From the IMG/VR virus record IMGVR_UViG_3300030012_002034, positions 1 to 64,000 of that record: a stretch of DNA of 64,000 bases. One strand, written 5' to 3'. The notes beneath the pieces are model-generated. The model saw only the letters and a list, made by a program, of their open reading frames with translations, made no database searches and was not told the DNA's origin. Shown one piece after another: positions 1 to 21,830 of this stretch (positions are counted from its first letter, which is position 1; every line of letters begins with the position of its first letter). The DNA is from a virus. The position numbers and the translations under genes were made by a program.

Positions 1-1346
1 TGTATTCTTTTACCTAATACTACTGACTCATGAAGACTTTTTACAAAATTATATGCTCTGGCTTGATAGTTCATATCTTTACTTTCCATTACATTTAGCA
101 ATTGCTCTTGATCTTCTTTAGAAAGATCTAATGTTTGAACAGAACGCAAAGAGTTTTTAATTGCTTTAATGCTATCAAGTACTTTTGTTTCTTCAAGTAC
201 TTTTCTTATCTCATCATTATTCTTTAATAAGTATCTATTTAATTCTGAGAACTGACCATAAAAATTATTAATAGTATTTTGTAAAGATTCAGGTGTTATA
301 TTTTTAATTTCTTCTAACATCTGAGTATTCTCATCTCTAAACTCTGCAATGTCAAGAGGTGTTAACATACTAGTATCTACAACAAAGTCTCCTTTTAATA
401 GTATATCAGTTAACTCACCAATTGTAGTATCAGTATTTAGCTTTTTTAAGTTTAATTTCTTAGCAAGCTTTCTTATAACTTGTTTAAGAGCAAACAATAG
501 TCCTTTGATAAAACTATTAAAAGACTGATCATCTGACTTAATCTTATTCATTTTATTATCACCGTCTTTTTCAATAGCCCGGATTATAGCTTCTTCTTTA
601 AACCTAGGAGTACCTTCTTCCAACACTCCTGACTTTTTTAATATTTCTATTATACCCTGTCCTGTAACACTAGTTTCCAAGTGAGAATATAATCTATCAA
701 ATAGTTTAGGATTATCTATTTGAATAGCTTTTAAAAATGGATGGGCATACTCATGAAGAACAGTAGCTGCATCAAACTTATCTTTGACAAGAAATACTTT
801 ATTATTAAAGTAAAACCCTGATTGATTATTATAAGGAGTAGAAGTATCTTTAAGTATCTCTCTAGCTTCATCTGAAGTAATTACTTCATTCTCAATACCA
901 AAAGCTTTAGTATATTTATCAGCCAACGCACTTGCTATTTTAGCATCTCTAGTTTTTTTCTGTAGCTCTTCAGTTAATGAAAATGCTTCAAACCTTTGTC
1001 TATCTATCTCATTATCATACTGTTCTGAAAGATCATCAAATAAGTATCTATCTGAGTAAGCAGTCCCTGCTCTTTCCGCATCTTCCATTAACATCTCTCT
1101 AGCTTGAGATTCTTCAATACGTAATTCTTTATCATAGTAAGCATCAATCATTTCTGATGGTACATTAACAGATACCATTGAGCCTATATCAGGATCATTA
1201 AAAAGGTCTAGCACCTTAAATTCCATATCTCTATTAAACTTTCTTACACCAGATAAAGCAGCATTATAGTTTAAGCCATTAAGATACTGACTAGTATTTT
1301 CTATCTCTTTTTGAAGTTCTTTCTTTATTTTTATTCTACAAGGCAT
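1..1346 (-). CDS. Giant-protein fragment with zincin-like metalloprotease motif (C-terminus outside window)
   Basis: The reading frame opens with ATG at 1346 and stays open to the window edge, so only the first 448 residues are visible. Residues 198-202 read HEYAH, preceded by the hydrophobic stretch ATVL. This HExxH helix is the zinc-binding signature of zincin metallopeptidases; a candidate third ligand is a glutamate in the FKEEAI segment near residue 250. The N-terminus is basic (PCRIKIKKEL), and the rest is charged and probably helical. It begins 18 bases after the stop of the RNA polymerase gene, so it is very likely co-transcribed and may be another virion-packaged protein. The domain call rests on one motif; the rest of the protein is not recognised. 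Confidence 0.72.
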   Translation of the reverse strand, partial: MPCRIKIKKELQKEIENTSQYLNGLNYNAALSGVRKFNRDMEFKVLDLFNDPDIGSMVSVNVPSEMIDAYYDKELRIEESQAREMLMEDAERAGTAYSDRYLFDDLSEQYDNEIDRQRFEAFSLTEELQKKTRDAKIASALADKYTKAFGIENEVITSDEAREILKDTSTPYNNQSGFYFNNKVFLVKDKFDAATVLHEYAHPFLKAIQIDNPKLFDRLYSHLETSVTGQGIIEILKKSGVLEEGTPRFKEEAIIRAIEKDGDNKMNKIKSDDQSFNSFIKGLLFALKQVIRKLAKKLNLKKLNTDTTIGELTDILLKGDFVVDTSMLTPLDIAEFRDENTQMLEEIKNITPESLQNTINNFYGQFSELNRYLLKNNDEIRKVLEETKVLDSIKAIKNSLRSVQTLDLSKEDQEQLLNVMESKDMNYQARAYNFVKSLHESVVLGKRI

Positions 1347-1364: not shown

Positions 1365-4300
1365 TTATGTACATGTTTTACCAGTAAATTTAATAAAAGG
1401 TCCATTACCAACTTGATAACCACCTTGATCAGCATAATATTGAGATGCTAAATCTATAGATATATCAAATCTTGCTTTCTCTTCTTCATTCATTACTCTT
1501 CTTAGTGCTTCATAAGTTGCACGGAATTCCATTTTTAATTTATCAGGTGTAAGTAAATCTTTACCTTCTTTCCAATAAACAGAAATATCATTATTATCTA
1601 TATGATTTTGTTCATGATAAACTAAGAAATCATTTATCTTATCTGTAGTATTTAATATTTTTTTCATATCATCTAATGATATATTAAAATCATCAAACAT
1701 TTTTAATACCTGTTTCTTTTGTTCGGATGTAATTCCTTTTTTAGCTCCCGTAAAATATTCAAAGAATTCATCTACAGATTCTACTGGATTTAGTTTAATT
1801 GTTTTTCCGTCAGTACCTGCTAACCTTTTAGTACCGTTTTTATTCTTAAGATTTCTATCTATAGTATAGTTAATTTCTCCTAGAGTTCCTGTCTCACCAG
1901 CTGGTTGAGCATCTTCTTCCACAACATTGGGTATATATCTGTTATAATCCCATAGATCTTTAAGTCTTGCAAACTTAAGTTTAGCAGTAAAGACATCTGT
2001 CCAATTAGCTAACTGAATTACATCACCATCTTTTGTAGTATAATCAAAAGGTTTTTTCTGATTATATTTTTCATAACTAAAAAAGTCAATAGCCTTAGCT
2101 TCTACTCCTTCTATTACTTCTTCAGATTTAGTATAAGTCTTTTGATCTTTACCTACGTAATCAGTAGTTTCTATTCTATATGTTCCTTCAACTTTACCAG
2201 TCTTTTTATTTACAACATCGTAGTTTTCTAACATTACTCTACTAGTACCATCTTTAGCTTGAACAGTTACTGTTCTAAAATTAGAAATTTTATATCCTGC
2301 TGGTGGTAACATATATGTATCTGTTACATAACCTTCTCCTTCAATGTCTCTTAAGAATACAGCATCAGGATAAACTTTTTCAAACTTAGATTTAGTTTCT
2401 GTTCTTGTAAATGGAGATATCCAATCTATATCATGTAAAGGATTTTCTTCAGGTCTTAGTACGGTTCCTTGTTCTGCTAATGCAGTACTACCTGTAAGTA
2501 TAAAACCTTCTTTACTAAGTCTTTTAACTATACTTGAACCAAACTTATCTGTTTCTAAAGCTTGTTCAATTGTTACTAACTTAGTTGGTTTACCATATTC
2601 TCCCGGTTTATATTTATTACCTGTAATTAAATCCACGTTTTGTTGTAAGATATTATTAGTAATAATTCCAATATTTGTATTAATCAATTCAATATTAACA
2701 CCTTCTCTTAATGTTTTAAAGAACTGCTTAACTAATTGTGCTATCTTACCTAATAGTGATTTACTATACTCACCTTTACTTTTATTTCTTAGATCTTCAT
2801 TTATAAGTTTACCAACTATTTTAAAATACTTGTCTTTATCTTTTATAGATCTATAATCAGTAGTTCCTGCTAGCTCACGTATAATATCTTTTACTAGTGG
2901 ATTATACTGCATCATGTATGCAATAAATTCTCCAGCTACATCAGGTAAAGCATCTCTATCTTTTACATATGCAACTTTATTTAAAATATCAGCAAAACCT
3001 ATATCATCAATAGCAAGTTTAGATTTAATTTGATTTATATCTTTAACTTTTATTCCAAAAGATTTTAAGTATGTTTCAAGAACTTTAGATGTATCTTTAC
3101 CTGCTTTCTTAATAGAAGCACCGTCTATATTAACGGGAGTATTTATTACTTCACCTTTAGGCACACTTTGTACTATATCAAAAATACTATCATTATATTC
3201 TTTTAATTCTGCACCTGTTAATACTCCAATGTCTCCCTTACTATTGAGTATGCCTTCTTCTTGTTTTCCAAAGATTCTACTAACAATATTTGGATTTGAT
3301 GTAGCTAAATATTTAGTCATTTCCTCTCCTCGTAAGTTATGTCTAAACCCTCTAGTAGAAACAGTATAACCGCTTCTTTTATATTTATCTCTTACATCTT
3401 TAGGAACAAAATGTATAAAGTCTAATCCTGAATCTACAATAGCAGGAATAGCCTCAGCTAAAAATTGCTTACTGCTTGGAGAAGATGTTACTCTATTTAC
3501 AAATACAGCATTATCATAATCATAATTTCCAAACATATAAGTATCCTTAAATTTATAAACAGAAAGCCTTTTTATAAAGTTTAAGAATTTTTCTTTTGTC
3601 ATTTCTTTACGGCCAGGAACCTTTGTTATTAATGCTACATAATCGTTATAAAGTTTATTTTGAAATGTCACATCATTATTAAAATTAGGAACTAATTCAT
3701 AGATGTTTCTTTTTAATACATTAGAAGCATCTGTTATAGGTGGATTCTCAAACTCTCCTTGTTCTTGAAAATCTATTTCACTATCAAATGATTCTTCTAT
3801 TACAGGTTCTACAGGATTATCAGTTAAATAATTTTGGAAGTTTCTAGATGATAACATTCTATTATAAATATCATTAAGTTCAGCTGTTATACTATAACCA
3901 TCTAAGAAATTTTTATTAGTTGTATCCAAGAAATTTTGACTAGCTGTTTTCATTAAACTTATATAAGCAGATGTATCAATAACATTATTAAAGTTTAATC
4001 TACTAAATCCTTTACCATGTTGGTATATCATGTTTAAAGAAAATAAATTAAATATCTGAGATATATCCTCATTGGTTTGTAGATCTTTTACTTTAGATAT
4101 AGAAACATTAGCTAATTGTTTTATCTCATTATTATATTTATCAGCTAAATCCGGATCATTACTTACAACATCTCTATTATTTAAATCTAGTACCTTTTCA
4201 CTGTTCTCTAATGGTAATGATGCAAGAGATAAGTTATCAGCTATTTCAAAATATTTATCTAAACCAAATTGGTTAATGGTGTCTAATATTAATTGTGAAT

Positions 4301-7300
4301 AAGAAATATCAGATGTCCCCATAATAAAACTTCTATTATAAGAATTCATTAAACTTCTTTCTGCAATAAATTTAATGTATGCTGTTTTCTTATTTTCTTT
4401 TAAAAACTGCTTGTATCTAAAATTAGTAATCTTACTTTTATCAGAATATTTATTTTTTACAAATACTTCTTTTAGTTTATATTTTACATATGTACCATAG
4501 TCATCAAAAGTTATATTAAAAGCAAATCCTTTTCCTCTACGTTTTTCATATCTATCTTTTAATTTTGTATCGTTAACATATATTATTCCATCTTTTAAAC
4601 TTATTGCTTCTTTATTAGTATCACTTACATTTACAGGTAAATTATTAGAAAACTCAGGATATATTACTATATTTCCTTTAGCATCAGTTTCTCTAGATAA
4701 AAGATTTTGTAGTAAATAATCTGAAATAGCATTAGTAAAAGAAGCTGTAAATACTTCTTCTCCGTCTACTCCTTTTCCAAATCTTGCTTTTAATGCTTTA
4801 TTTTGTCTATAACCCAGTAACTTACCAGTTATAAAACTATTAATATCATTACTAAAGTTCAAATCAAATACCTCTGATGTAATGTCATACATAATATCAT
4901 TTACATTAAAGCCAGATAATATAGATTCCTCAAGAAGTTTTCTTACGGACTCAGGATTTAAATCTCTTCTATCATATATCATTTGAAGTGCAGAGTATTG
5001 TTTATTTACTTGCTGCGCTGTTTTAATAAATGTAGTATCTGGTGTTGAAATAGATTGTATTTCTCTTAGACCTTGAGTTTGTCTTTGAATGTTATAATAC
5101 TGAGCTAGCATAGCTAAAGATTCTTTAGATGTTATATCTTTTTTTAAACCTTTCTCTAGTCTGTCCTGTGTAAGATTTTCTGTTACTCCTAAATCTCTAA
5201 ATAATAATTCTGATACAACATTTGGAGATGTTTCTATAGCTTTTGCTAAGTTTCCAACCATCTTAGCTTTAGGATTTGTAGCCTTATTAAATTTATTTAC
5301 CCTAGCTGTAATCTCCATAGCTACTTTAGGGTCTACTATTCTTGATAATACATTTGATAAAGCACGTTGTTCAGCAGAACCTTTTCCAGAAGTAGGATGA
5401 AGGACAGAATATGGACCATTAAGTTTAGCAATCTCTTGTATATATTCCTTAACTAAAGGTTGGTTTAAGAATGTAAATACTGTATCACTAGGTACACCAG
5501 CTTCTATCATATAGTTTAATACATTAATACTTTCTGGAGTAGCTCCTAACGTAAATGTAAAAGGATCTTTAGCTCTATCTAATATAGCATTTAGTAAATG
5601 TGAAAATATTTCTGATATGTTTTCTCCTTCTGTATTATATTTACCAGCTAAAGATATTGCACCATTAGTTGTATTATGATTAAACTTCATAGTAAAGATA
5701 CCAGGCATTTGAAAGTTTATTTGCTTATATATAGGATGCATTTTATTTTTCAATGCTACAATTCCTAGAGTAATAGCACCTACTAGATTTACCTTATGTT
5801 GATATAAGTTATAACCTAATTCTAAAGTTCGTGTAGGACTTATACTCTTATTACCTTTTTGATTGGTTCTTTCTTCATCAAATACATTTTCAAATCTATC
5901 ATAACCTTCTTCTGCTTCTTCAAGAGTTTCTACAGCTCGTTTGACTAAATGAATATTATTTGGTCTAACTAAGTTGACATAGTTATCTTTTAGTAAGAGA
6001 ACATCTTTAATAGATCTTACAAGCTCATTATGAAGAGCATCTTTTTGTCTTCCTAATATTTTTGAAGTTGACTCCTCTCCTTTTTCTATCTCTGCTTGTA
6101 AATCATCTTTACTTAATACTGTTTTAATTAAATTTCCTTGTCTATCTATCTTTGGAAATAATTCAAATAACTTATCAACATCAAAGTCAGATCCTGCTTT
6201 AGCTACAATCTCTGTAGGAACTATAATTTTATTTCCTTCTTGAGGATTTAAGAAATGATAAATTTCAAATATTTCATTTGAGTTTGTAGCATCAATAGGA
6301 ATCCTAGGACCTAGAATAGTTATTGACTCTCTATGGTCTGCTTTATTTAACCATACTTCATCTTTAATCATTTCATTAAGTCTATCAATATTACCTATAG
6401 GTTCTCCATCATTATGTTTGAGATTTAAAAGATTTATAAAATCTCCTTGTAAAGCTATAACTGCTTGAGCAGGTAAAGTTTTTCCTGTCTTAGGATCTAT
6501 TCTATAATATTGTAAACCATTAGTTCCATTCTCTTCTCCTGGACTTAACCATAAATCTTTATCTAATGTAACCGGAGTTTGTATTAAAGGTTCACCATAT
6601 ACTTTTTGTTTAACTAATCTCTTTTGTATTATTCCTAACAAAGCTTTCATTACATCATCTGATTTAGGATGTATAGAAAGATCTATAAACTTTTCACCAC
6701 TTGGTGTAGTATTAATTAACTTTAATAAGTTATAAGGAAGATTCTTCTGCTCCATTTCATTTTGTAACAATCTCATTAAATTAGTCATGTTACCTTTTGA
6801 AATATATTTATCTTGTTCCGCATCATACTTAAAATCTATCTGAGCTAATAACTCATCCTTTAAGATATTGTTATACTTATTAACAGCATTAGTATAGTTT
6901 GATACAGCCTTTCTAGCTTGAGCACTTATGGATCCTCCTCTTTCAAATAATCCATCTAATAATATACCTCTTAACTGAGTAGGAAAAGTTACTTTACCTT
7001 TATACTGGTCATTAACTTTAGTTACCTCCTTTAAGTTTTGCATATAAATAGTGTTAGGAGTAAACATTGTTTCTCCTTCTACTAGATCTTTTATTTCTGT
7101 TTGAGTATTATCAGTATAAATATCATCTGAGTTTGCTTCTTCATTAGAAGATATTCCACCAACTTTATTACCTGATTCAAATGTTACATATTGAATACCT
7201 TCTTTCATCATTTGTTTATGTAACTTCTCTTTTTGTTTTGATGAACTTCCTGGTATAATAGGAGACAATGCAAATTTATGCATAGATGTAACTACCGCTT

Positions 7301-10300
7301 CATTAAAATCTAAGGCTCCATAATGATGTAACTTATATACAGGAAAGTAAGTATTTATTTGTCTTGGGCTAATAGTTTCACCATTAGCTATTCTTTGAAA
7401 CAAATTTTCTTGTTCATTAGTCCACTTGTTCTGTAACTTTTTAAGAGTTCTATATGCATCAAAAGTAATATAACCATGACCGTCAGATTCCTCCATACCT
7501 AAGTAAGTATCTGCATCTGTGTTTACTAACTTATCAATTTCTTTTTGTGATAGTTTAGGAAAGCGTTCTTTATAATCAGCTTCTAAAGCTTTTTTTATTT
7601 CATCTATAAAATCACTATCTTTTTCAGAGTCTTTTATAATAGCTGTATTTAACTTACCTCTATATTGAAAAGGAGCTATACCTTCTTTAGATAGTCTAGA
7701 TGCATAACTTTTTTGATTCCAAACTTCATTAATAAAGTTTATTGCGTTTTGATCATAAAGAAAACCTTCTCCACCAGATTGTCCACCAGGTGTACGCTTT
7801 TGCATATGTTCTTTACTATGATCAAACTGCACCATATTACCATGTAATAAGTGTATAACTTCAAAGTTATGTATCCAGTTATTTATAGTATAAGCTGACA
7901 TTAATGTATTAATAAGTTGCTTCTTAACTTTAGGGTCTGTAGAATTATAATTTTCTACTCCGGATTTTTCTTTAAGACTTTTACTTAGATAAGGAGCTTT
8001 ATTATAATAATTAGTTATATTATTTTTAACCCTATTTTGAATGTACTCCATTATATCAGCTCTAATCTTTTTATTAAGAGCTGATCCTTCATCAGTCATT
8101 AAATAGTTTTCTATTTTTACTGCAGGATCTAATTGTAACTTATATAACTCATTTTTAGTAGAGTCTCTTAAAATATTATCAAATGCAGTAAAGGTGTTAC
8201 CAGCATATCTATTACCTATTGGTCTATTATACCCGGCCAATCTTAAATACAACTCTTTATTTGCATCAAACATTTTTATTCTATCAAACTCAACTGCCAT
8301 TGCAGGAATAAATAGTTTATCAATTGAGTATCTCATACCCTCACTAATACCAGGGTCTTCAGACTCTTGATTAAACATGTCTATATCCACATAAAGATTT
8401 TTATCTGTCCCTTGAGTTTTCATTAAACCTCCTTGAACTTTTAGACCATAAGAAGCTTTCTTATCGGCAGGTCTAGTATTTTCTTTTATACCATTAAGTA
8501 AAAGAGTATGCATATCTTGCGTAAACTTTTCTACATCTGTAAGATCAGAAGTTACTTTACTATTAGTTTTATTATCTTGTATATTAATACCAGATGTAAT
8601 AAAAAGATCAAAAGTTTTATTAGCTCTCTTATCAAAGGTTCCTTCTTTAACTCTATATACAGAGTTTAATAAATGAGATCTTTTAGTAAAAGGATTTATA
8701 TTAGGATTAAGATAAGATAAAAAGTCATACTCTGATTCTTCTTTATTAGAATTAGTTTTTTGCCAAGTATCATTTCTTAAATTACCTAGTTCATTTAATC
8801 CTGCCACAGTCATTGTCATGTTACTATCTAGTACATGAGGGAATATTCTTTCTCCATCAGCTGCAAGTAAACCATAGTTCTTAGATACACTTCCATATTT
8901 AGATTGCAACTTAGCAAGTTCTTTAATAGACCCGCTTTGACTCACTCCTCTTTTAAGATTTTTACTTAATAAAACTCCTGCAGGAATATCATCTACTAAT
9001 GTTTCAACAGGATTTTGTTTAAACTTATATAAGTACTCAAACTGTTTTTCTGTAAGATTATCCCTATACTCAAGTTCATTAAAATCTTTTACTGTCTGAA
9101 ATATAAATGGTATACCAAACTTACTTTCATTTTCTACATTAGTAAGTTCTGTTTTAATCCTTTGTATATCATCTAATTCTATTCCTAATGTATTTAAGAA
9201 TTCATAATAGTCTTCTTCTCTTAATCCTTTTTTATCAAATCTTTTAACTAAAGCATCTAGATTTAACATTGGAGTATTAGTACCTTCTACTATTGAGATG
9301 TATTCATTAGCATTCTTAGTCTTGAACATTCTTTGAAAATCTCTAAGGATCGCATCTGTATCTATATCAGATTCAGTAACTTCTACGTTACCATCTTTAA
9401 ATACACTTAACTGATAATACTTAATTGCAGACTTTTTAAATGTTTGCCAGAAGCTAGCAATTGCATCAAACTCAAACTCATTAGTAGTATTTTCAGGTTT
9501 AGGTAACTTATATTTTATAAGTTGTTTTAATTCAGGAAATTCTTCAGATGCTTTTTCAATTTCTTGATACATCTTCATAGGATTCTTAATACCTGATATT
9601 CTATTAGTAAGTGTTGCCCAAACTCTTTTAAAATCTGCAAGTTCATTAACTCCTAAATAGTTCTTAGATGTATTTCCGTTTGCGTCTACTTTATGAAGAC
9701 TTTTTAAAATGTATATTACTTCTCTTTCAGCCATTTCAACTAATGACTTTTTACCAATCTCTTTTCCAAACTTTTCAGAACTTGGATCATTACTATCTTG
9801 TTCATCTTCTTCTAATGCTTCTTCCTCTAATATATTTTTATTTAATATAGGGAATGTAGAATTATCATAATAGTACTTAAGTGTTCCTTGTTTAGATGTT
9901 GTCCAGTTACCAAGAGCTGTTTCTAAGATTCTTATTTTATTTAATAAGTTTTGCTGATCTCTTGTTATTTCAATCTCAGGAAGTTTGTTCTCTAATATTT
10001 GAAGTTCACCATATTTTTTTGCTCTTGATTTTAAATTACTTGTTTGCTTAATAACTTCTGTAATGTTATTAGCTACAATAATTCCTACAGGATTTTTACC
10101 TGACTTAATATTTTTATGTGTATAAAAATCTGATATGATATCTATACCATAGAAGTTTTCACCAAAAGATCTTTCTCCTCTTTTAATATCAGCATTTAAG
10201 TTTTTAAAAGAATTTACTTGACTTCTAAAAAAGAAATACTTATCAGATGCAGGAGTTCTTTCTCCTGTCTCAGGATCTACTGCTTCTAAAACAGCAACCG

Positions 10301-13300
10301 CATTCTCCTTAATATCTTTCATGCTATCAATAGCATCAAAAGAAGGCATCTTAGTTTCTCTAGCTAACTTGTCTGTATTAGTTTTTAATATTTTTTTTAA
10401 TTTTTCTCTTACTTCCTCTACTACAATTTTTCTATTTTGAGGATTTAAAACTAAATTTAAAGTAGTAGACTTAGAACTTTTCTCCCCGGCCTTTGCCATA
10501 TCTTTTGACAGCTCATCAACAACTTCAGAGAATAAACTATCCATTGTAGATACAATTAGTTTAGAATCAGCATCATTTAATGCATCTTCTCTTCTATTAT
10601 CTACTTGTCTAATACCTCTATTTAATTGAAGAAACTCTGAATTCTTAACTGAAGGAGTATAATCTGCTAATAAGCTAGGGTCAGAACTAGACAAATATAA
10701 CCTAGAGTATAATTCATTAACAGCTGGTATACTCATTACATCTATGTTAGCAGCTTTGCTACTATTCTTAAATGCTTTTCCAAAAAGAGCTTTTAAAAAG
10801 TTTAAGATTTTTCTGAATATAGTATTACGCTTTGGTCTATTCTTTTTTATCTTAGGATTTTTAGCATAGCTTCTAAATTCTTCTGCTAAAATTTCTTCTA
10901 TTTGATAGTTAGAGTAATCTTTATATTTAGCATTACTGTTTCTTACTTCATCATATAAAGCTTTTCTTTGTTCAGGAGTTAAATACAATTGAGAGAATCC
11001 ATGCCAAGCTTCATGATAAATATCAACAGCTGTTCCTTTATCAAATACTTTTATAGTACCTAATGTAGAATCTGATAAAGCAGATGCATTTACAACAAAC
11101 TCTGCAAACTGACCTGAGTTAACTATATCAGTTATTTTTTCTAGACTTATTACTTTACTTAAAGGTGATGTACTCCACCATTTAACAGCATCTTCTATTT
11201 GTTTCTTAGTTACATTGTCAGGATCATAACCTTCTCTTTTTAAACTACTCCAATCTCCTTCCTTTTTAAATCTCTCTAATAATCTACCTGAGCTATTTGT
11301 AACATTTTGATTTGGATTAGGCTCTAAGTTAGAATCTATATTATCTGCTTTATTCTGATTTTCTTTAGATGCAGATTCTTTTCTTTTTTCCTCTTCTATT
11401 TTTTTTAGTTCTTCATCAGTATACCAAGGAACATCATCTTCTGTTTCAAGGATCTCTGTTAAATTTTGAGCATCTACTACTTCTTTTGCTTTAGATAAAC
11501 TTTCATTTAAAGCAGAATATGGATTCTTAAATGCAATAGACATATTATAAAATCCAGGATTAAGAGTATTTAACTTAACATTAATTCTATCTCCTATACT
11601 CATTAGAAATTCTCTAAAGTCCGTAGGTACTAGCTCTCCATCTATTAATCTTAAAAAAGGTTTAGTCTCTTGAACTATTGCTTCATTGTATATACCAACG
11701 GTGGGTCTCCAATTAGCAGGAGCTAAGTTTGTAGAATTATTATTGAGTGATGCATTCTTCCAATAGTAACCTTTTGCTAAAACAGTTTTAACAGCTTTGG
11801 CTGCATTTTCTCTTTGAGCTTTATTACTTAGTTTATCTTTACTTAATTCAATTATAATAGGCTTTTTACCTGATTCATCTATAATCTGAAAAGTACCATC
11901 CGTATTAATTTTATAGTTTCTTTGAGACTTACTTACATTATTATTTAAAAACTGATCAAGAAAAGCTTTTCTTTCAGATTTTGAAAATTTAGGATTAGTT
12001 ACAACCTCTGCTATTTCATTAATTAATTCCTCAGTAAGAATATATCTTTCTAATGCAAAGTTATTTCCATTTAAAGTAATATAAGCAGAACCAGAAAGAT
12101 TTACGTTTCTTGTTTTATTATTAGAAATTTTTATACTTTGTATAACTCTTTTTATATTGTTATCATTATTAGAATTAGTAGAGTTATTTAAAGCTTTTGA
12201 TAATACATCTAAAGATATATCAGGATTTACTAGTTCATCAGACATACCTTCTGTTATTCCTTGTATGTCAACAAGCATTGAATGATTTTTATTTTCCTTT
12301 CCTAAGAATTCTTTTTTAATTTTAGAAAGTATATCAGCTCTCTCATCTAAATATTCTTTTGCTTCTTCAACAGTAATTCCTAATCTTTTAGATAAAGCTT
12401 GAGGAGACATTATTCTTTCTTCTTTACCATAAATATCAGTTATCTTTGTACCGCTTTTATCTGTTCTTACATCTCTTAAAAATTGAAATACTACTTTACC
12501 ATCACTTCTTGATTCTGCATAAGAACCATCTTCAGTAAAGAATACAGGTTGTCCAAACTCATCTGCTATAATAGCAATAACTCTTTCATTAGCTTGAGTT
12601 ACTTCTTTACGTGCATCTCCTCTTTTTAATCTAGCAAAAGATTCTATAGCTTCTTGTTGTACAGATGCTGGTAATAAATCTCTTGTTTGTGAATTTGTAA
12701 CAAATGCATCAAACCTTACAAACTTTAATTTTAAAGTTTTAGTTTGTCCTGATAAATCGGTATAAGAAAAAGCTTGAGGACCAGTTCCTTCAAGTGTGTT
12801 ACTTAACTTTAGATTAGCTAAAGTATTTACTATAGTAGTTTGACTTGGATCTAGTTCTTGTATTTCAAGAGCATTACTGTTAGGCTTTTTTTTAACAAGG
12901 TTCTGTCCTGTAGTAGTTAAAGGATTATCAGACTGTCCTCTAAATATTTCTTTTTTAGGTTCTTTAGCAGGATCTTGTTCAACTAAAACAGGATTATTAT
13001 TATCTTGCTCATTAGTTGCTGCATCAAATAATACTTGTTTAGGATCTACAGAAAAGTTTTTTACAATCAAATCTATGCCTGTATCAGGATTTAAATATTC
13101 TAATGATAATTTTCTTAATTTATTTAAATCTAAATCTTGGCTTAAATCATCTTCAGCTATATATATCATAGATATCATCTTAGGTATAGGTTGAATAAAC
13201 TGAGCTGCTTGTTCTGCAGAACCTGTTTCTTCTTTAACCATATCAAATATATCTTGCATATAAGTATCCGGATCAAAGTTTTTATTTTCAAACATATCTC

Positions 13301-13358
13301 CAGCAATATCTGTATATAAAGCTTTTATTTGCTCATTATCTAGTGCACACTTAATCAT
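1365..13358 (-). CDS. Giant crAss-like virion RNA polymerase with extra zincin and nucleotidyltransferase-like modules
   Basis: This is a 3997-residue protein. Residues 2391-2395 read DFDVD in the context AGSDFDVDKLF. This matches the DxDxD metal-binding loop of two-barrel RNA polymerases and is close to the DFDID of the packaged polymerase of Cellulophaga phage phi14:2. The family role is transcription of early phage genes after the enzyme is ejected with the DNA. Other motifs seen are HEAWH at 782-786 with a downstream EEILAEEF (zincin-like), GSTAL at 3623 followed by DID at 3643-3645 (nucleotidyltransferase-like), and HEQNH at 3915-3919 with a downstream EF (second zincin-like site). The length is far above the roughly 2200 residues of phi14:2 gp66 as I recall it. 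The start ATG overlaps the previous stop as ATGA. Polymerase identity is fairly secure; the other domains are motif-level calls. Confidence 0.85.
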   Translation of the reverse strand: MIKCALDNEQIKALYTDIAGDMFENKNFDPDTYMQDIFDMVKEETGSAEQAAQFIQPIPKMISMIYIAEDDLSQDLDLNKLRKLSLEYLNPDTGIDLIVKNFSVDPKQVLFDAATNEQDNNNPVLVEQDPAKEPKKEIFRGQSDNPLTTTGQNLVKKKPNSNALEIQELDPSQTTIVNTLANLKLSNTLEGTGPQAFSYTDLSGQTKTLKLKFVRFDAFVTNSQTRDLLPASVQQEAIESFARLKRGDARKEVTQANERVIAIIADEFGQPVFFTEDGSYAESRSDGKVVFQFLRDVRTDKSGTKITDIYGKEERIMSPQALSKRLGITVEEAKEYLDERADILSKIKKEFLGKENKNHSMLVDIQGITEGMSDELVNPDISLDVLSKALNNSTNSNNDNNIKRVIQSIKISNNKTRNVNLSGSAYITLNGNNFALERYILTEELINEIAEVVTNPKFSKSERKAFLDQFLNNNVSKSQRNYKINTDGTFQIIDESGKKPIIIELSKDKLSNKAQRENAAKAVKTVLAKGYYWKNASLNNNSTNLAPANWRPTVGIYNEAIVQETKPFLRLIDGELVPTDFREFLMSIGDRINVKLNTLNPGFYNMSIAFKNPYSALNESLSKAKEVVDAQNLTEILETEDDVPWYTDEELKKIEEEKRKESASKENQNKADNIDSNLEPNPNQNVTNSSGRLLERFKKEGDWSSLKREGYDPDNVTKKQIEDAVKWWSTSPLSKVISLEKITDIVNSGQFAEFVVNASALSDSTLGTIKVFDKGTAVDIYHEAWHGFSQLYLTPEQRKALYDEVRNSNAKYKDYSNYQIEEILAEEFRSYAKNPKIKKNRPKRNTIFRKILNFLKALFGKAFKNSSKAANIDVMSIPAVNELYSRLYLSSSDPSLLADYTPSVKNSEFLQLNRGIRQVDNRREDALNDADSKLIVSTMDSLFSEVVDELSKDMAKAGEKSSKSTTLNLVLNPQNRKIVVEEVREKLKKILKTNTDKLARETKMPSFDAIDSMKDIKENAVAVLEAVDPETGERTPASDKYFFFRSQVNSFKNLNADIKRGERSFGENFYGIDIISDFYTHKNIKSGKNPVGIIVANNITEVIKQTSNLKSRAKKYGELQILENKLPEIEITRDQQNLLNKIRILETALGNWTTSKQGTLKYYYDNSTFPILNKNILEEEALEEDEQDSNDPSSEKFGKEIGKKSLVEMAEREVIYILKSLHKVDANGNTSKNYLGVNELADFKRVWATLTNRISGIKNPMKMYQEIEKASEEFPELKQLIKYKLPKPENTTNEFEFDAIASFWQTFKKSAIKYYQLSVFKDGNVEVTESDIDTDAILRDFQRMFKTKNANEYISIVEGTNTPMLNLDALVKRFDKKGLREEDYYEFLNTLGIELDDIQRIKTELTNVENESKFGIPFIFQTVKDFNELEYRDNLTEKQFEYLYKFKQNPVETLVDDIPAGVLLSKNLKRGVSQSGSIKELAKLQSKYGSVSKNYGLLAADGERIFPHVLDSNMTMTVAGLNELGNLRNDTWQKTNSNKEESEYDFLSYLNPNINPFTKRSHLLNSVYRVKEGTFDKRANKTFDLFITSGINIQDNKTNSKVTSDLTDVEKFTQDMHTLLLNGIKENTRPADKKASYGLKVQGGLMKTQGTDKNLYVDIDMFNQESEDPGISEGMRYSIDKLFIPAMAVEFDRIKMFDANKELYLRLAGYNRPIGNRYAGNTFTAFDNILRDSTKNELYKLQLDPAVKIENYLMTDEGSALNKKIRADIMEYIQNRVKNNITNYYNKAPYLSKSLKEKSGVENYNSTDPKVKKQLINTLMSAYTINNWIHNFEVIHLLHGNMVQFDHSKEHMQKRTPGGQSGGEGFLYDQNAINFINEVWNQKSYASRLSKEGIAPFQYRGKLNTAIIKDSEKDSDFIDEIKKALEADYKERFPKLSQKEIDKLVNTDADTYLGMEESDGHGYITFDAYRTLKKLQNKWTNEQENLFQRIANGETISPRQINTYFPVYKLHHYGALDFNEAVVTSMHKFALSPIIPGSSSKQKEKLHKQMMKEGIQYVTFESGNKVGGISSNEEANSDDIYTDNTQTEIKDLVEGETMFTPNTIYMQNLKEVTKVNDQYKGKVTFPTQLRGILLDGLFERGGSISAQARKAVSNYTNAVNKYNNILKDELLAQIDFKYDAEQDKYISKGNMTNLMRLLQNEMEQKNLPYNLLKLINTTPSGEKFIDLSIHPKSDDVMKALLGIIQKRLVKQKVYGEPLIQTPVTLDKDLWLSPGEENGTNGLQYYRIDPKTGKTLPAQAVIALQGDFINLLNLKHNDGEPIGNIDRLNEMIKDEVWLNKADHRESITILGPRIPIDATNSNEIFEIYHFLNPQEGNKIIVPTEIVAKAGSDFDVDKLFELFPKIDRQGNLIKTVLSKDDLQAEIEKGEESTSKILGRQKDALHNELVRSIKDVLLLKDNYVNLVRPNNIHLVKRAVETLEEAEEGYDRFENVFDEERTNQKGNKSISPTRTLELGYNLYQHKVNLVGAITLGIVALKNKMHPIYKQINFQMPGIFTMKFNHNTTNGAISLAGKYNTEGENISEIFSHLLNAILDRAKDPFTFTLGATPESINVLNYMIEAGVPSDTVFTFLNQPLVKEYIQEIAKLNGPYSVLHPTSGKGSAEQRALSNVLSRIVDPKVAMEITARVNKFNKATNPKAKMVGNLAKAIETSPNVVSELLFRDLGVTENLTQDRLEKGLKKDITSKESLAMLAQYYNIQRQTQGLREIQSISTPDTTFIKTAQQVNKQYSALQMIYDRRDLNPESVRKLLEESILSGFNVNDIMYDITSEVFDLNFSNDINSFITGKLLGYRQNKALKARFGKGVDGEEVFTASFTNAISDYLLQNLLSRETDAKGNIVIYPEFSNNLPVNVSDTNKEAISLKDGIIYVNDTKLKDRYEKRRGKGFAFNITFDDYGTYVKYKLKEVFVKNKYSDKSKITNFRYKQFLKENKKTAYIKFIAERSLMNSYNRSFIMGTSDISYSQLILDTINQFGLDKYFEIADNLSLASLPLENSEKVLDLNNRDVVSNDPDLADKYNNEIKQLANVSISKVKDLQTNEDISQIFNLFSLNMIYQHGKGFSRLNFNNVIDTSAYISLMKTASQNFLDTTNKNFLDGYSITAELNDIYNRMLSSRNFQNYLTDNPVEPVIEESFDSEIDFQEQGEFENPPITDASNVLKRNIYELVPNFNNDVTFQNKLYNDYVALITKVPGRKEMTKEKFLNFIKRLSVYKFKDTYMFGNYDYDNAVFVNRVTSSPSSKQFLAEAIPAIVDSGLDFIHFVPKDVRDKYKRSGYTVSTRGFRHNLRGEEMTKYLATSNPNIVSRIFGKQEEGILNSKGDIGVLTGAELKEYNDSIFDIVQSVPKGEVINTPVNIDGASIKKAGKDTSKVLETYLKSFGIKVKDINQIKSKLAIDDIGFADILNKVAYVKDRDALPDVAGEFIAYMMQYNPLVKDIIRELAGTTDYRSIKDKDKYFKIVGKLINEDLRNKSKGEYSKSLLGKIAQLVKQFFKTLREGVNIELINTNIGIITNNILQQNVDLITGNKYKPGEYGKPTKLVTIEQALETDKFGSSIVKRLSKEGFILTGSTALAEQGTVLRPEENPLHDIDWISPFTRTETKSKFEKVYPDAVFLRDIEGEGYVTDTYMLPPAGYKISNFRTVTVQAKDGTSRVMLENYDVVNKKTGKVEGTYRIETTDYVGKDQKTYTKSEEVIEGVEAKAIDFFSYEKYNQKKPFDYTTKDGDVIQLANWTDVFTAKLKFARLKDLWDYNRYIPNVVEEDAQPAGETGTLGEINYTIDRNLKNKNGTKRLAGTDGKTIKLNPVESVDEFFEYFTGAKKGITSEQKKQVLKMFDDFNISLDDMKKILNTTDKINDFLVYHEQNHIDNNDISVYWKEGKDLLTPDKLKMEFRATYEALRRVMNEEEKARFDISIDLASQYYADQGGYQVGNGPFIKFTGKTCT

Positions 13359-16300
13359 TTTCCTCTCTTTTTACACTTTATTAGATCTTTTAAACTACTC
13401 TTTCTTTCTTCTTTATTCTTTTTCTTTGCATCCTCTCTTGCTTTAGTTTGAGATTCAGGATCACCTAGAAAATCTTCACTAACTTTCTTAGATTGTTTAA
13501 CATCTGTTTTTTCCTGTTTAGTCATAGGTTTTGTTTTTTCTACTTCAGTGTTTACTAAAGCTGGTAATGTATAGTTCTTTTCTAGTTCTCCAAATGTAGC
13601 ACTATATTTTTTATTTTTACCATTAATAACTATGTTTAATTCTGCACCATCTTTGGTCATCTTTTCTATAGTCACAGTAGAGTTTGTAAGCTTGTCATAG
13701 TTCCATTTACCTGGGCCTAGTTTTGGTCTTATCTTACCTGTTACAATAAGAGTAGTTCCTTCTTTATAGATCTCACTCTTAGGAATAGCTGGACCGTCTA
13801 GTGTTGTTTCTTCTTTTTTAGTTGATACACTAAGTTCTTTAAATCTTTCTTCAACCAAGGGGAATAAAACTTCTTCTTGAATTTGTATAGGAATGTTACC
13901 GTATTTAGAAGATAGATCTAACATAATGTTAGACAACTCATTAGCTTCTGCTTTAGCAATAGCAGCTTTTGCTTTCTCTACTCTTTTATTAATAGCTTCA
14001 TTCTCACTTAATTCTATTTTAGTAGCTTCAGGATCTTGTTCACCTTTTTTAACTTCAGGTTTAACAGGAGCTTTTTTAGTTTCTTTTTTAGTTTCTACAG
14101 GAGTTTCTTCTTTTTCTGCAGCTACTTGTTTTTCCTTCTCAGCTATTTCTTGCTTAAGTTCTTTTATTCTTGCTTCTATTTGTGGAGTACCTAAGTTCTT
14201 TTCAACTAGTTTTTCTTCATTAGCTAGTGAAGCTTTTAAAGCATCTACCTCTTGTTCTAGTTTAGATTTCTCAGGAGCTTTTTCAGGAGCTTTCTTTTTA
14301 ACTTCTTCTTTAACACCAAGTTTCTTCTTAATAGATTTAAAGTTATCTCTTATATAACTATTAATTAAGTTATTCTTTTGTTGTTGACTGGTAGATTCTT
14401 TATATTGAGTACCATAGTCTTCATCTTGTTGCATCTCTTCAAAGACTTCTTTATAAACTCTAGGAGATAATCTTCTTAAGTTTGTAGCAGTAGGATCATT
14501 TGTAAATCTTCCAATACTAGTTTCTTGATTCTTTTCAAAGTTTTCAACTAATTCTTTTTCAAGAGCTTCATATTTCTTTTCTATCTTAGCAACTTCTTTA
14601 GCATCTCTTTCTATAGTTGTTGTATATCTTATAGCCTTTTCAAAACTATCATCCATCTCATTAACAATCTCTCCAGCTTGGTTAACTAAGTTTCCATTTT
14701 CTTTTCTAAGAGTTACCTTATCTTTTGATTGAGCAATAGTAGCTACTATTCTTTCTCCTTCTAATGCTTTAGATTGTATAGCTCCTATTTTAAAACTTGT
14801 TAAAGGTCTTTCAGGTAGTATAACTTCTACCTCTACTTGTTTTTCTACTCCTTCTAATGCTTCAATTTCTTTTCTTTTTCTTTCTTTAAGCTCATTTATT
14901 TTTTCTTGTAAGAAATCTTTTTCTCCTGCTTCTTCTTCTACAGATAGTTTTTTAAGATCTTTATTTTGAATTAATAAGAAAAGAGCTGCATTATATTCTT
15001 TAGTACCTTTAGTGTATACTTGTTTAGTACTATTTTTAATAAAGTATTCTGGCAACACTCCTTCATCCATAAATAATCTAAATGCTGCAGGCTCCATAAG
15101 TAAATTATACTGAGAATATAATGCATTTAACACTGCATTATTTTCTATATCTGCTATCTGATTATTTACTATATTATCAAAGTATTCTTTTTTATTTTCA
15201 TAAACCCTGGTCATCCACTCTTCATTTCTCTCAACATGATTTAAGAAACCTTTAGGGTTATGCATAAGATTTACATAATAAGCAAGTACTTGTTTTTCAT
15301 CTTCTAGTTTAGAATAATCAACTACATCTTCAAAAGCTTTTTCTATTTGTTCATCAAATACAATTTCTTTATTACTATCAGCAATAAAATTAATATACTT
15401 AGAGAAAGCTTTTTTGAATTCAAGCGTAACTTTATTATCATTAGTTTCATTTCTTTCTAATACACCTTCCTTCTTTAACTTTGCTATATCTTCTTTGTTT
15501 ACAGGAACATCTTCTACAATCTTACCTTTATCATCATAAACTTTTTTTCTTCCTTCCTCAACTACAATCTTATCTTTCTTAAAATACTTATTAAAAGTTT
15601 CTTTTGCTTTTTGAAACTCTTTTAAAATTTCTATTTTTTCATTATTCTTTTTAACAATCTTTTTAGACTCCTCATCTGTTAGTCCTTCAAGTGAAGAATT
15701 TTCTCCTGTAAGTAAACTTATTTCTGCAACTAATGCATCTTCATCTAGCATTACCTGAACATCATTACTAGTTATGTTCTTTAAAGGTCCTTTTGCAGTT
15801 AGATTATTAGCAATGCTTACCATTCTTTTAGCCACATCATTATAAGATTCACGGTAAAATACAGCTTGTTTTTTAGCTTCTCTCCATGCCATATGTAGCA
15901 TTGCAGCTTGTTTATATTCTTGTGAGTCTGTATCAGGAAATTTACTAAGATCTACAGGATCAGGAAATCTCTCTTCATAGAATTCATAATGTCTTTTAAT
16001 CTCTTTAGCATTATCTATTACTGTATCAATTTTAGACTGATATTCTTCTCCTGTTCCTTTTTCAAAACCAAATGTTTTTTCAAACTCATCTGCTGGAAGT
16101 TCTTTCATTGAATCTAAATGATCAATAAAAATATCAAAAGATCCTTTATCTAAACTCATATTAACCATAGAAATAAGAGCTTCATTTTCAGCATCTCCTT
16201 TTTCTTTAGTAGTACCGTTTTGTTTTACTTGACCTACAGCATTTTGTACAGAGTAGTTAAATAATCTAGAGTCAAATAGTTTTACAGGATCTGCATATAA

Positions 16301-18190
16301 AGCATTCAAACTAGCAGCAGCTTGTTCGCCAAACTGTTTTCTTACTTTTTTGTATTCTTCATATTTTTTCTTATCTCCAAAATATTTATTATATCCTTTA
16401 CTCATTGCAGGTATAGCAGCATTTAATGGTCCTGCAAACATACCCATGAAGAAACCTGATGCAAAAGTTTCAAATCCTTGTTCACCAAGTTGACTAGATA
16501 CAGCATTTTGAAAGTATTGTTTTTTTGTAGCGTAGTCATAAGAACCTTCAGCAAAATGAAATGCTTCTCTATTCTTTTGTTTAAATGAATCTACAAAATA
16601 ATTTTCATAATAATTAGAACTTATCTCTTGAGCAACTTCTTGAAAACCTTCAGTAAAGTTAGCTTTAAAATAACCTAGTCCTCCTTTTATAGATTTTCTA
16701 AGAGGATCCTTAGCAAATGATTTTAAAGTGTTTGTTAGACTATTTTCTGCATATTTAAACTTACCTCCTATACCTCCTTTTTTAGGAGTCCATTTTAAAG
16801 ATCCGTGTTTAAAAGATTTAATGTCATCAATCTTAGATCCTAAGAAACTTCTTATACCACCTTTTGGTCCTGTTATATTTGGGAATACTAATTTATTAGT
16901 ACCAAAAATTAAAGCAGTATTAAATGCCATATTTGAAGTAGCTGCAGTATTAGCTTGTTGAGTAAAGTTCCATTGAACATCATTATCTGGAGTTACTCCA
17001 TTAGCTCTATAGTAATCTTCATAAAGTCTATTATATACTTTATTTTTTGTAAAGCCTCCTTCCAATCTAGATTCTGCAAGAGCCATGTTTACATTTCTTA
17101 CATCTCTATAAAATGCACCTACTGTTTTTGCACCTTTAGCTAAACTAGTTAGATTATCAACTTTATTAAAAGATCTTACAGCATCTATAGTATTTTCAAT
17201 AGGATTAACAAGTCTTCCTACTGAACTCATAGCTCTACCTGTTCTAGTACCATTCCAAAAAGTTTTAGCTCCTTTATATGTGTTTACACTTTTTAATGTA
17301 TTATTAATACCTTTAGCCATATCAACACCGGTTCCAATACCTTTTATAGATTTTAATCTACTTCCAAGTTTTCCTAATACAGCTCCTGTTCCAAGTAAAC
17401 TAGCTCCTCCTGTTGCGGGAGCTAATAATCCAAGAGCAGCTTCTTCTACTAGTGCTTCAGTCATAATACCAGCAGTGTATCCAAAGTTCATCAGTGTATT
17501 ATTAAAGAATGCACCAAGTCCACCTTTAGTTGACTGTCCAATTGCTGCAGCTCTTTCATAAGCTTCAGCATCTTCTGTATCAGGAGAAAAGTCAAATTCA
17601 GTTACTATCTTGTATAAACTTTTAGGACCAGAAACAAAACCTCTAGTAGCTAATGGTAAAAAAGAATTAGACATCATTCTACTAAGATCATCCCAACCTG
17701 TAGTATGTTTATTATATAAAGATTCATTATCACGGAAAGGATGAAATCCTAACTCTTGTATTTTCTCACTTCCATAACCTGCATATCTATCATAGAAAGC
17801 ATCTCCATCAGGTCCATCATTATAAGAATATATCTTACCATATGTATTCCTCTTTTGGATAGTGCTTGTAAGTGCTTGCACTTCTCTTCCTAAATTTTGT
17901 GCATATGCTACTCGTGCTCCATAAGAAGTATCAATATCGTCAGGATCATTTTTAACTTTTTTTACAGGAGGTTGATTAGGAGGGTTACCTACAACCTTTT
18001 GTCTTACTTGTTGCTGAGGTCTATATAAACCTGTTGGTGGAGTAATAGGAATCTCAGATTGAGGATCAATAATATTATCTCCTTCAAATGCTTGATAACT
18101 TGTTGGATCAACATTAGTAGGATTTAGATTGCCGTATTGTGGTCCTAACTCATCAAGTGGACTTACTGGTATGTTTTCTTCCTCTGCCAT
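13355..18190 (-). CDS. Large cargo-like virion protein (1611 aa) with hydrophobic segments and charged coiled-coil half
   Basis: No enzymatic motif is recognised. The first 80 residues are rich in proline, asparagine and glutamine and are probably disordered. A Gly/Ala-rich apolar stretch lies near residues 237-275 (ALGLLAPATGGASLLG), and a second (GFFMGMFAGPLNAAIPA) near 575-600. From about residue 640 the chain is dominated by Lys and Glu, including KKAPEKAPEKSK and VETKKETKKAPVK, which suggests long coiled coils and linkers. The gene sits immediately upstream of the RNA polymerase and overlaps it by four bases. In crAss-like phages, large proteins next to the polymerase are packaged and ejected. 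A role as ejected cargo that could insert in a membrane is inference. The start ATG follows the previous stop by one base. Confidence 0.65.
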   Translation of the reverse strand: MAEEENIPVSPLDELGPQYGNLNPTNVDPTSYQAFEGDNIIDPQSEIPITPPTGLYRPQQQVRQKVVGNPPNQPPVKKVKNDPDDIDTSYGARVAYAQNLGREVQALTSTIQKRNTYGKIYSYNDGPDGDAFYDRYAGYGSEKIQELGFHPFRDNESLYNKHTTGWDDLSRMMSNSFLPLATRGFVSGPKSLYKIVTEFDFSPDTEDAEAYERAAAIGQSTKGGLGAFFNNTLMNFGYTAGIMTEALVEEAALGLLAPATGGASLLGTGAVLGKLGSRLKSIKGIGTGVDMAKGINNTLKSVNTYKGAKTFWNGTRTGRAMSSVGRLVNPIENTIDAVRSFNKVDNLTSLAKGAKTVGAFYRDVRNVNMALAESRLEGGFTKNKVYNRLYEDYYRANGVTPDNDVQWNFTQQANTAATSNMAFNTALIFGTNKLVFPNITGPKGGIRSFLGSKIDDIKSFKHGSLKWTPKKGGIGGKFKYAENSLTNTLKSFAKDPLRKSIKGGLGYFKANFTEGFQEVAQEISSNYYENYFVDSFKQKNREAFHFAEGSYDYATKKQYFQNAVSSQLGEQGFETFASGFFMGMFAGPLNAAIPAMSKGYNKYFGDKKKYEEYKKVRKQFGEQAAASLNALYADPVKLFDSRLFNYSVQNAVGQVKQNGTTKEKGDAENEALISMVNMSLDKGSFDIFIDHLDSMKELPADEFEKTFGFEKGTGEEYQSKIDTVIDNAKEIKRHYEFYEERFPDPVDLSKFPDTDSQEYKQAAMLHMAWREAKKQAVFYRESYNDVAKRMVSIANNLTAKGPLKNITSNDVQVMLDEDALVAEISLLTGENSSLEGLTDEESKKIVKKNNEKIEILKEFQKAKETFNKYFKKDKIVVEEGRKKVYDDKGKIVEDVPVNKEDIAKLKKEGVLERNETNDNKVTLEFKKAFSKYINFIADSNKEIVFDEQIEKAFEDVVDYSKLEDEKQVLAYYVNLMHNPKGFLNHVERNEEWMTRVYENKKEYFDNIVNNQIADIENNAVLNALYSQYNLLMEPAAFRLFMDEGVLPEYFIKNSTKQVYTKGTKEYNAALFLLIQNKDLKKLSVEEEAGEKDFLQEKINELKERKRKEIEALEGVEKQVEVEVILPERPLTSFKIGAIQSKALEGERIVATIAQSKDKVTLRKENGNLVNQAGEIVNEMDDSFEKAIRYTTTIERDAKEVAKIEKKYEALEKELVENFEKNQETSIGRFTNDPTATNLRRLSPRVYKEVFEEMQQDEDYGTQYKESTSQQQKNNLINSYIRDNFKSIKKKLGVKEEVKKKAPEKAPEKSKLEQEVDALKASLANEEKLVEKNLGTPQIEARIKELKQEIAEKEKQVAAEKEETPVETKKETKKAPVKPEVKKGEQDPEATKIELSENEAINKRVEKAKAAIAKAEANELSNIMLDLSSKYGNIPIQIQEEVLFPLVEERFKELSVSTKKEETTLDGPAIPKSEIYKEGTTLIVTGKIRPKLGPGKWNYDKLTNSTVTIEKMTKDGAELNIVINGKNKKYSATFGELEKNYTLPALVNTEVEKTKPMTKQEKTDVKQSKKVSEDFLGDPESQTKAREDAKKKNKEERKSSLKDLIKCKKRGK

Positions 18191-21100: not shown

Positions 21101-21761
21101 CATTTTCAAAAAGTTTTTGTAATGGTTCTTTTATTTGTTGACCATTCTTAGTAGTAATTATAAATCTACCATCTTTACTAAACTTTACTGTCTGCGCTTC
21201 TATACCTGCAGCCTTAGCAATCTTTCTTGCTTCTACACTTGCATTAACATATGATGTATAATTAGGAGATCTAAATGTCATTGCCTCTTCAGCTGATGCA
21301 TTTTTAAATTCATCTCTTAGATACTCCATTTCTCTTATACCTGTATTCCACCAAAGTTTTCTTTCTTCTTCACTACCAGAATTCTTTAAATTCTTAGCGG
21401 CATTATATTGATTATTCCAATTTTTAGTATAAGCCATATCCTTCATCAAAGACTTATCTTGATAGAAAGGAGTAAATACTTGTACTGCTTGATCAACATT
21501 TTGTTGTAAGCTAAGATCTAGCCCAGCAACTCTTTGCAGATTAAAACCAATATTTTTAACTAGCTCTTCTTTCTTTTTGATGTTATCATCTCTTGTTAAA
21601 TCAGCATAAAAATATTGACCATAGACTTTATTTAACTGCTTCCAGTTACTATCATACTGATTCTGTTTTGTTTTTAAAACAGTATCATAGAAATTTAAGT
21701 CCGGAGTAAACGGTTGATACTGCGGAATAAAGTCTGTCACACCTTGTAAATACGTTGCCAT
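18192..21761 (-). CDS. crAss-like cargo protein, 1189 aa
   Basis: The N-terminus (GVTDFIPQYQPFTPDLNFY, then a tyrosine- and lysine-rich helix) resembles a protein repeatedly found beside the virion polymerase of crAss-like and marine podoviruses; I recall this as a family but could not search it. The first 550 residues are mainly charged helices with Gln/Lys/Arg-rich coiled coil. The C-terminal half is more globular, with Gly, Thr and aromatic residues (GAKGTFDHAL, SYSYLGLGNPDEFDG). No catalytic motif, signal peptide or clear membrane segment was seen. It lies between two other giant proteins with only short gaps, consistent with one cargo operon. An ejection or tail-lumen role is inferred from position. 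Start choice: ATG at 21761 is the first in frame after an AT-rich leader. Confidence 0.7.
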   Translation of the reverse strand: MATYLQGVTDFIPQYQPFTPDLNFYDTVLKTKQNQYDSNWKQLNKVYGQYFYADLTRDDNIKKKEELVKNIGFNLQRVAGLDLSLQQNVDQAVQVFTPFYQDKSLMKDMAYTKNWNNQYNAAKNLKNSGSEEERKLWWNTGIREMEYLRDEFKNASAEEAMTFRSPNYTSYVNASVEARKIAKAAGIEAQTVKFSKDGRFIITTKNGQQIKEPLQKLFENELGKDPRIQAVYKTQSYVNRKDYAFGNAAQFGGDKNAAEMKYLENNYKILQNQNKKYYLGLKDRDQKYNDKIAALEEKMKSKKGSPQELMMLEDLKMNRDINSQSLQRIEKEYEQFKNGSSTATTSSGFENPYGDVDALRRKVDGGVAQMLMRKDLDEAAQIQSMRGYSQTIKTNPYALQAEKFRNALALQSRKFSNQRAMYEQKRRDKLSDDRIKYNKEARKEAIANKKLENKALLDSGLYENDIVEKKFRVVNGVKVYEDDPRLVTMAQQATEEKRKTDPNAIVTPQDVYNDLPAATEQIEMVVNKDEFGMPALREKEEFKGASSETTSMDGTTDDSIDAVEIKQAAESVRAQQAKGINSIILPKEQKTMDFLEFIKTESPEDYKYLTDGRDFKQTFADLKKDKYVKSNSKAVLNLYERIDNYAKQNKDLKNNIGGYINNTDLASMISLKEKADISAHQDNIQTVKDWETSSRGTQDEFIKEMNAAGIPLNNLSMQAIGMGKKGEPMFNTSIAPLLLLEEKQQEVAQTIFPGAKVFDYGSRIIENFTGYKGLSGRDGISGFIGDALGVGKENPFNYVTQKWKEFSEKRSKGVPPIIMENLGVTSKGTGVHSDFSTAIDVGTGLGYGAEVTRQVQNDISQSVEPLSYSYLGLGNPDEFDGDMTEKQEAFNKIAPGVLNAYLAQQRTDNLSHTIKYSGVSHGSIGKEATILMLDPKWIDDNTGKTEDETKLFTPEVAAGLKTNGFSITGAKGTFDHALAVGSREDAIDIAIRNAGPEGKTFELPGDASYNIKYDKLTKSYTTELSMLVLTDQGYKVQTEPGTYNSGDWDQVYVQQEQYMKNLEETNNRVFNKLFPNKDKATWNNQQIETWEDMKETIITNRYSNQGPVKWADRVDVESGKRDPKDRLTDRESLLAGEELRSRGIGGFERNPSEQALYNLKTGPYSRMTPDVESLSMAEGLYAGELSKYL

Positions 21762-21800
21762 AGTTAATCTTTTCTTATGTTATAAATATATTAAAATTTT

Positions 21801-21830
21801 ATAAGTTTAATAAACATTATAAGTTTAATA
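21801..21830. repeat. 12-bp direct repeat in AT-rich intergenic gap
   Basis: The sequence ATAAGTTTAATA occurs at 21801-21812 and again at 21819-21830, with starts 18 bases apart. The second copy covers the stop codon of the 916-residue gene. It lies in the only gap of appreciable length (63 bases) within the downstream cargo group. It may be a leader or promoter element for the 1189-residue gene, or low-complexity AT DNA. Confidence 0.4.

Follow-up and report, generated by a model that had tools for sequence, protein, structure and literature searches.

A mobile GNAT- and nucleotidyltransferase-like module associated with the giant virion RNA polymerases of crAss-like phages

P0001 and its genomic context

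The window analyzed here is a stretch of 64,000 nucleotides of viral DNA (positions 1 to 64,000 of IMG/VR record IMGVR_UViG_3300030012_002034), and one of its genes, P0001, raises the question of why a virion-type RNA polymerase (RNAP) should carry so much additional protein. The first-pass annotation of the window had described a 3997-aa ORF with a DFDVD site at residues 2391 to 2395 and, in the extra material, two zincin-like motifs and a nucleotidyltransferase (NTase)-like motif. All of these were located in P0001, with HExxH motifs at residues 782 and 3915 and the NTase-like motif at residues 3623 to 3645. P0001 is encoded on the minus strand and continues for 1602 residues behind DFDVD.

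1365..13358, minus strand: P0001, putative 3997-aa fused virion RNAP/polyvalent protein (ORF and homology)
11001..11015, minus strand: HEAWH motif, residues 782-786 (sequence motif)
6174..6188, minus strand: catalytic DFDVD, residues 2391-2395 (motif and alignment to 6VR4)
2424..2492, minus strand: NTase motif GSTALAEQG...HDID, residues 3623-3645 (sequence motif)
1602..1616, minus strand: HEQNH, residues 3915-3919, putative second zincin-like motif (sequence motif)

The reading frame is real, since collinear ORFs exist in other contigs, namely, L001 (4073 aa, ending at the locus edge; 96% identical), L002 (4078 aa), and L003 (4409 aa). Single-sequence scans of P0001 against PDB, Pfam, PHROG, and NCBIfam gave no useful match. 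PF00940 had no match in the genome, which is uninformative because this model represents single-subunit T7-type polymerases and was also silent in every control genome. The C-terminal region containing HEQNH (window positions 1368 to 1901) is weakly similar to part of a 2508-aa protein of cr116_1 (L066, 12001 to 12372; E 4e-3). Several proteins of the virion block end in short Cys-bearing tails (GKTCT, PSKTC, and PKTCSS at window positions 1365, 42379, and 44303, respectively).

The genome is represented by a 107,381-bp virus record, the ends of which share a 99-bp overlap (98/99 identical; window positions 1-99 versus 107283-107381), and it is therefore circular or terminally redundant with a length of ~107.3 kb. 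Its portal, terminase, and major head protein match PHROGs of phage head and packaging, and its TerL matches the TerL proteins of crAss001, DAC15, cr4_1, and phi14:2; the source genome is that of a crAss-like phage. P0001 is flanked by two large genes.

1..1346, minus strand: start of the next subunit (1984 aa, running over the contig join to position 102674 of the record; HEYAH at residue 198)
13355..18190, minus strand: P0002, 1611-aa upstream neighbor in the same block

The 1984-aa protein (102674 to 1346) is a homologue of crAss001 gp49 and phi14:2 gp76 (hhalign E 1.6e-23). P0001 thus adjoins a gp49-type large cargo/RNAP subunit in a crAss-like genome, as expected of a phi14:2-type virion RNAP. 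P0002 was considered as a homologue of gp47/gp78, but this was unsupported, as no relation to crAss001 gp47 was detectable.

The RNA polymerase core

A core profile was built from six homologues over P0001 residues 1600 to 2799. Against PDB it gave one strong match, the phi14:2 DNA-dependent RNA polymerase (6VR4; E 4.2e-24), with SDFDVDK of P0001 aligned on SDFDIDK of 6VR4 and residues K2028 and K2065 aligned on two first-barrel lysines. The DFDVD site, as the annotation had proposed, therefore sits on the DxDxD loop of crAss-like polymerases. In addition, a profile-profile comparison (hhalign) with Steigviridae RNAPs (crAss001 gp50, tikkala, DAC15, phi14:2, and Dulem virus 41) was collinear from residue 1204 to residue 2642 (E 3.5e-40), so that both searches bear out the assignment of P0001 to the crAss-like virion-type RNAPs.

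5370..9749, minus strand: RNAP core region, residues 1204-2663 (homology to crAss001 gp50 and the phi14:2 RNAP)
7164..7277, minus strand: first-barrel region (K2028 and K2065 fall on 6VR4 lysines in the alignment)

An AF2 model of residues 1600 to 2799 made from six sequences had a mean pLDDT of only 35.5, a low confidence that is due to the shallow alignment and that speaks neither for nor against the double-psi beta barrels. Two such barrels in one chain are predicted from the sequence alignment, which covers both regions, and a two-barrel-type RNAP is the best explanation for residues ~1204 to 2663. For relatives of P0001, the presence of the RNAP in virions (PMC10172136) and the transcription of early genes (PMC7886860) have been described.

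Size and subunit fusion

The DFDID position given in the annotation for the phi14:2 RNAP, which is gp077 in KC821624 and gp66 in the literature, was accurate: the protein has 2180 aa, and its DFDID is at residue 1361. Unlike P0001, it has no HExxH in the same chain. P0001 is indeed far larger than this protein and than crAss001 gp50 (2412 aa), but RNAPs that match or exceed P0001 in size occur in deposited uncultured crAss-like phages; gp26 of cr4_1 (Suoliviridae) has 4491 codons, with a zincin at 2002 and DFD at 3433. The cr4_1 gene contains in-frame stops under table 11; reassigned stop codons have been described for crAss-like phages (PMC7886860).

10734..11186, minus strand: zincin domain 1, residues 725-875 (homologue of the zincin at the C terminus of crAss001 gp47)

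The zincin at residues ~725 to 875 matches the C terminus of crAss001 gp47, which is the product of a separate gene in that phage. Since the gp47 zincin accounts for some of the additional N-terminal sequence, the layout of P0001 is a subunit fusion. P0001 combines the gp47 zincin and the gp50 core, and the gp49 homologue is the next gene, whereas crAss001 has three genes, with gp47 on the other strand. A zincin followed by the RNAP in one ORF is also present in cr108_1 (gp_22606, 2967 aa, interrupted at the catalytic loop; collinear with P0001 residues 769 to 2391) and in cr4_1 (collinear with residues 769 to 2648), although both have a longer stretch ahead of the zincin. These fusions, together with a review according to which crAss-like RNAP genes encode up to ~6000 aa and giant size is a hallmark of these RNAPs (PMC10136315), make the size and N-terminal extension of P0001 ordinary. 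Accordingly, the proposal of a polymerase fused with other modules stands insofar as the extra material does contain separable modules but not as a novelty. The cr108_1 RNAP ORF (L012, 7119 to 18709) ends exactly at the expected DFDxD loop, and the core resumes in the next ORF ~300 bp on; there seems to be an intervening element in the catalytic loop.

A discrete module behind the core

The NTase motif noted in the annotation is part of a module of ~570 aa that also has a GNAT-like domain and circulates between phages, which had been missed.

1923..3713, minus strand: mobile module, residues 3216-3812, ~570 aa (BLAST, profile search, and identity comparison)
3252..3689, minus strand: GNAT-like domain, residues 3224-3369 (AF2; Foldseek, assigned by size and position)
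1962..2579, minus strand: NTase-like domain, residues 3594-3799 (AF2; Foldseek 4ok0; invariant motifs)

In a profile search, 22 crAss-like viral contigs proved to carry the module, and by BLAST it is ~50% identical among contigs whose RNAP cores are only ~20% identical. Its placement varies: (i) it is fused to the RNAP at the C terminus in the window, L001, L002, L003, L006, and L038; (ii) it occupies the N-terminal portion of the next large ORF in L004, L005, L008, L009, L032 to L034, L037, and L041 to L043; (iii) it forms a separate ORF in L036 (787 aa), L039 (857 aa), L040 (767 aa), and L035 (1312 aa); and (iv) it lies upstream of the RNAP in L007 and within the RNAP in L010. Wherever the locus extends far enough, the module is in or beside the RNAP gene.

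No module was found in the searched records of crAss001, phi14:2, DAC15, cr108_1, cr4_1, and Dulem virus 41. A tblastn search (E up to 1) of 50,697 annotated phage records, a plasmid search, and a scan of GTDB genomes likewise yielded no match. Scans of the module against Pfam, PHROGs, and PADLOC gave scattered weak matches only, and NCBIfam gave none. With neither an annotated phage or plasmid nor a convincing family matched, what looks novel here is this uncatalogued GNAT/NTase module, together with its mobility and its nested insertion.

AF2 modeling of the module with 21 sequences predicted two confident domains (residues 3224 to 3369 and 3594 to 3799), with the middle, about 3400 to 3580, lying outside both. 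The best PDB matches in Foldseek were GNAT acetyltransferases (probability 1.0; E 1.4e-3 and above) and the nucleotidyltransferase 4ok0 (probability 0.99); as no PDB match fell below E 1e-3, these are weak matches and are taken as leads, the GNAT match fitting the first predicted domain and the NTase match the second by size and position. The signature of Pol-beta-type NTases is present, with GS, HDxD, and the Asp of AIDFF invariant in 21 members. No canonical GNAT acetyl-CoA loop was recognized by eye in the module, and Pfam gave no match to GNAT. A decayed zincin with kinship to the gp49-type subunit was considered for the middle of the module but discarded (hhalign probability only 15 to 21%).

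Several contigs differ around the module. The standalone L036 protein (9890 to 12250, 787 aa) has no N-terminal GNAT-like part and has an extra P-loop-like segment, VASGLGKSVLAKKN, between module parts, and the ends of standalone modules are also Cys bearing (LIC, NCI, and KCKL). In L003 (14283 to 16967), the stretch separating the RNAP core from the module is ~330 residues longer than in L002. L001, which is 96 to 98% identical to the window protein in this region, has an extra domain of ~150 aa (GFAEGIAGSSTANYAQQAG...; 21440 to 21910) just behind the module, bounded by the direct repeat GCTCAACCAACT; the window (~1900 to 1935) has a single GCTCAACCA, and the domain is absent. This is an in-frame gain or loss of a domain between near-identical phages.

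Exchange between phages and a nested insertion

The identities of TerL and of the module to their window counterparts are 74% and 55 to 56%, respectively, for L002, 73% and 43% for L038, 74% and 40% for L042, and 71% and 39% for L034, compared with 26% and 53% for L010 and 22% and 40% for L035. Among 14 phages, identity in the RNAP core correlated with identity in the next subunit (rho 0.64, permutation p 0.0015), whereas no correlation was seen for the module (rho 0.07, p 0.25). The next subunit thus tracks the RNAP and the module does not, so that the module travels independently of its phages. Its tree is divided into two deep halves, and constraining the TerL clade to stay together on it was rejected (AU p 1.6e-33). 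Slow evolution alone is insufficient to explain the pattern, since the window module is 55% identical to that of the closer relative L002 and 53% identical to that of the remote L010, and the modules of L010 and L002 share 62%.

In L010, the RNAP matches are split by the module: they correspond to P0001 residues 1948 to 2259, followed by the module and then by residues 2344 to 2663. With the module removed, the L010 RNAP gives a continuous alignment (E 1.1e-14) and matches the Steigviridae profile (E 7.7e-33). Eight relatives of the L010 RNAP (32 to 58% identical in the upstream flank) have an empty site, with 6 to 13 residues or none in place of the module, and none of their records, several of which are fragments, contains the module elsewhere. 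The insertion lies ~140 residues ahead of the catalytic motif, between the two conserved core regions that correspond to the two 6VR4 barrels, the barrel assignment being taken from the published structure. Sequence comparison thus demonstrates a discrete module, exchanged between phages and nested within the RNAP of L010, in addition to the homology of the RNAP core and zincin and the order of their fusion.

Discussion

We consider the module to be, probably, a swappable effector on an injected, fused virion RNAP of the polyvalent-protein type. P0001 would comprise, in order, an N-terminal part with the zincin, the RNAP core, the GNAT/NTase module, and a short C-terminal region with the second HExxH. 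In crAss001, gp47, gp49, and gp50 are virion proteins by mass spectrometry, and according to the published model this cargo leaves through the tail (PMC10172136); in phi14:2, gp76 to gp78 are annotated as structural proteins detected by MS/MS. By analogy with these two phages, P0001 would be carried in the phage head and enter the host upon ejection, after which its core would transcribe early genes; its delivery should resemble that of the crAss001 cargo. To judge from domain type and mobility, the module most likely has an effector role: it would covalently modify some host molecule at an early stage of infection, and the RNAP would be its delivery vehicle. The activity of each domain and the host target are given here as predictions.

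Polyvalent proteins are injected, multidomain proteins that combine an RNAP or a primase with zincins, GNATs, and Pol-beta NTases, and every N4-type RNAP carries a fused zincin (Iyer et al. 2017; PMC5512222). crAss-like phages are not mentioned in that study. In P0001, whose gene lies among virion genes, a zincin and an RNAP are recognized by profile and GNAT-like and NTase-like domains by fold, the last two as weak matches. P0001 fits the concept, with an injection presumed from the crAss001 cargo and with an RNAP of the two-barrel type, to which the single-subunit-type polymerase of N4 is unrelated.

It is rather unlikely, in our estimation, that P0001 is a polyprotein from which its own zincins, or else a protease of the host or the phage, release the zincin, the RNAP, the module, and the C-terminal region as separate pieces, either ahead of packaging or once ejection has taken place. 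Two HExxH motifs in the chain, the occurrence of the module and other parts as separate ORFs in relatives, and the processing of P1 DdrB, probably by its own zincin (PMC5512222), would agree with such cleavage, whereas the N4 virion RNAP is packaged unprocessed with its zincin (PMC5512222). Any autocleavage would be compatible with an effector carried on the RNAP, and the two readings are not exclusive. The module could also be an accessory part of transcription that modifies, for example, the polymerase, its transcript, or a transcription factor of the host; its position beside the RNAP would then reflect a joint function, and recombination of the entire block would account for its exchange. 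Both NTases and GNATs are able to act on RNA or RNAP, and the module is in or next to the RNAP gene wherever this can be judged. This reading is nevertheless unlikely: phages with the same RNAP family (crAss001, phi14:2, DAC15, cr4_1, cr108_1, and Dulem virus 41) do without the module, and the neighboring subunit tracks the core while the module does not, which argues against recombination of the whole block.

The two deep halves of the module tree and the hallmark status of giant RNAPs (PMC10136315) would also be expected of an ordinary giant RNAP whose extra length is structural or serves packaging, with the discordance of the module reflecting ancient paralogy and differential loss. A single module per genome in the records searched, the empty sites in the relatives of L010, and, within one half of the tree, the similar module identities of the near L002 (55%) and the remote L010 (53%) make this improbable. 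Least credible is a selfish, intein-like or homing element inserted in frame and having no role in infection. Introns and inteins are abundant in crAss-like genomes (PMC7886860), and the L010 insertion is nested in frame in a conserved gene that has empty sites in relatives. However, scans with Pfam, PHROGs, and PADLOC revealed no splicing or endonuclease domain, and standalone ORFs, terminal fusions, and invariant NTase residues also make such an element very improbable. An intein in particular was rejected, as no Hint domain was found with the same three collections and the L010 junctions lack splice-junction residues by inspection.

If the module is an effector delivered by the RNAP, crAss-like virion RNAPs may, more tentatively, be interchangeable vehicles, with the GNAT/NTase cassette moving between lineages into positions beside the RNAP, at its end, or in the inter-barrel linker, always keeping the frame, and being coinjected to disarm or reprogram the host. 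L010 and its eight empty-site relatives provide a natural before-and-after case of a two-barrel RNAP that tolerates a 570-residue insertion between its barrels. Defined, transferable, and apparently enzymatic, the module is a short and testable candidate for an injected effector.
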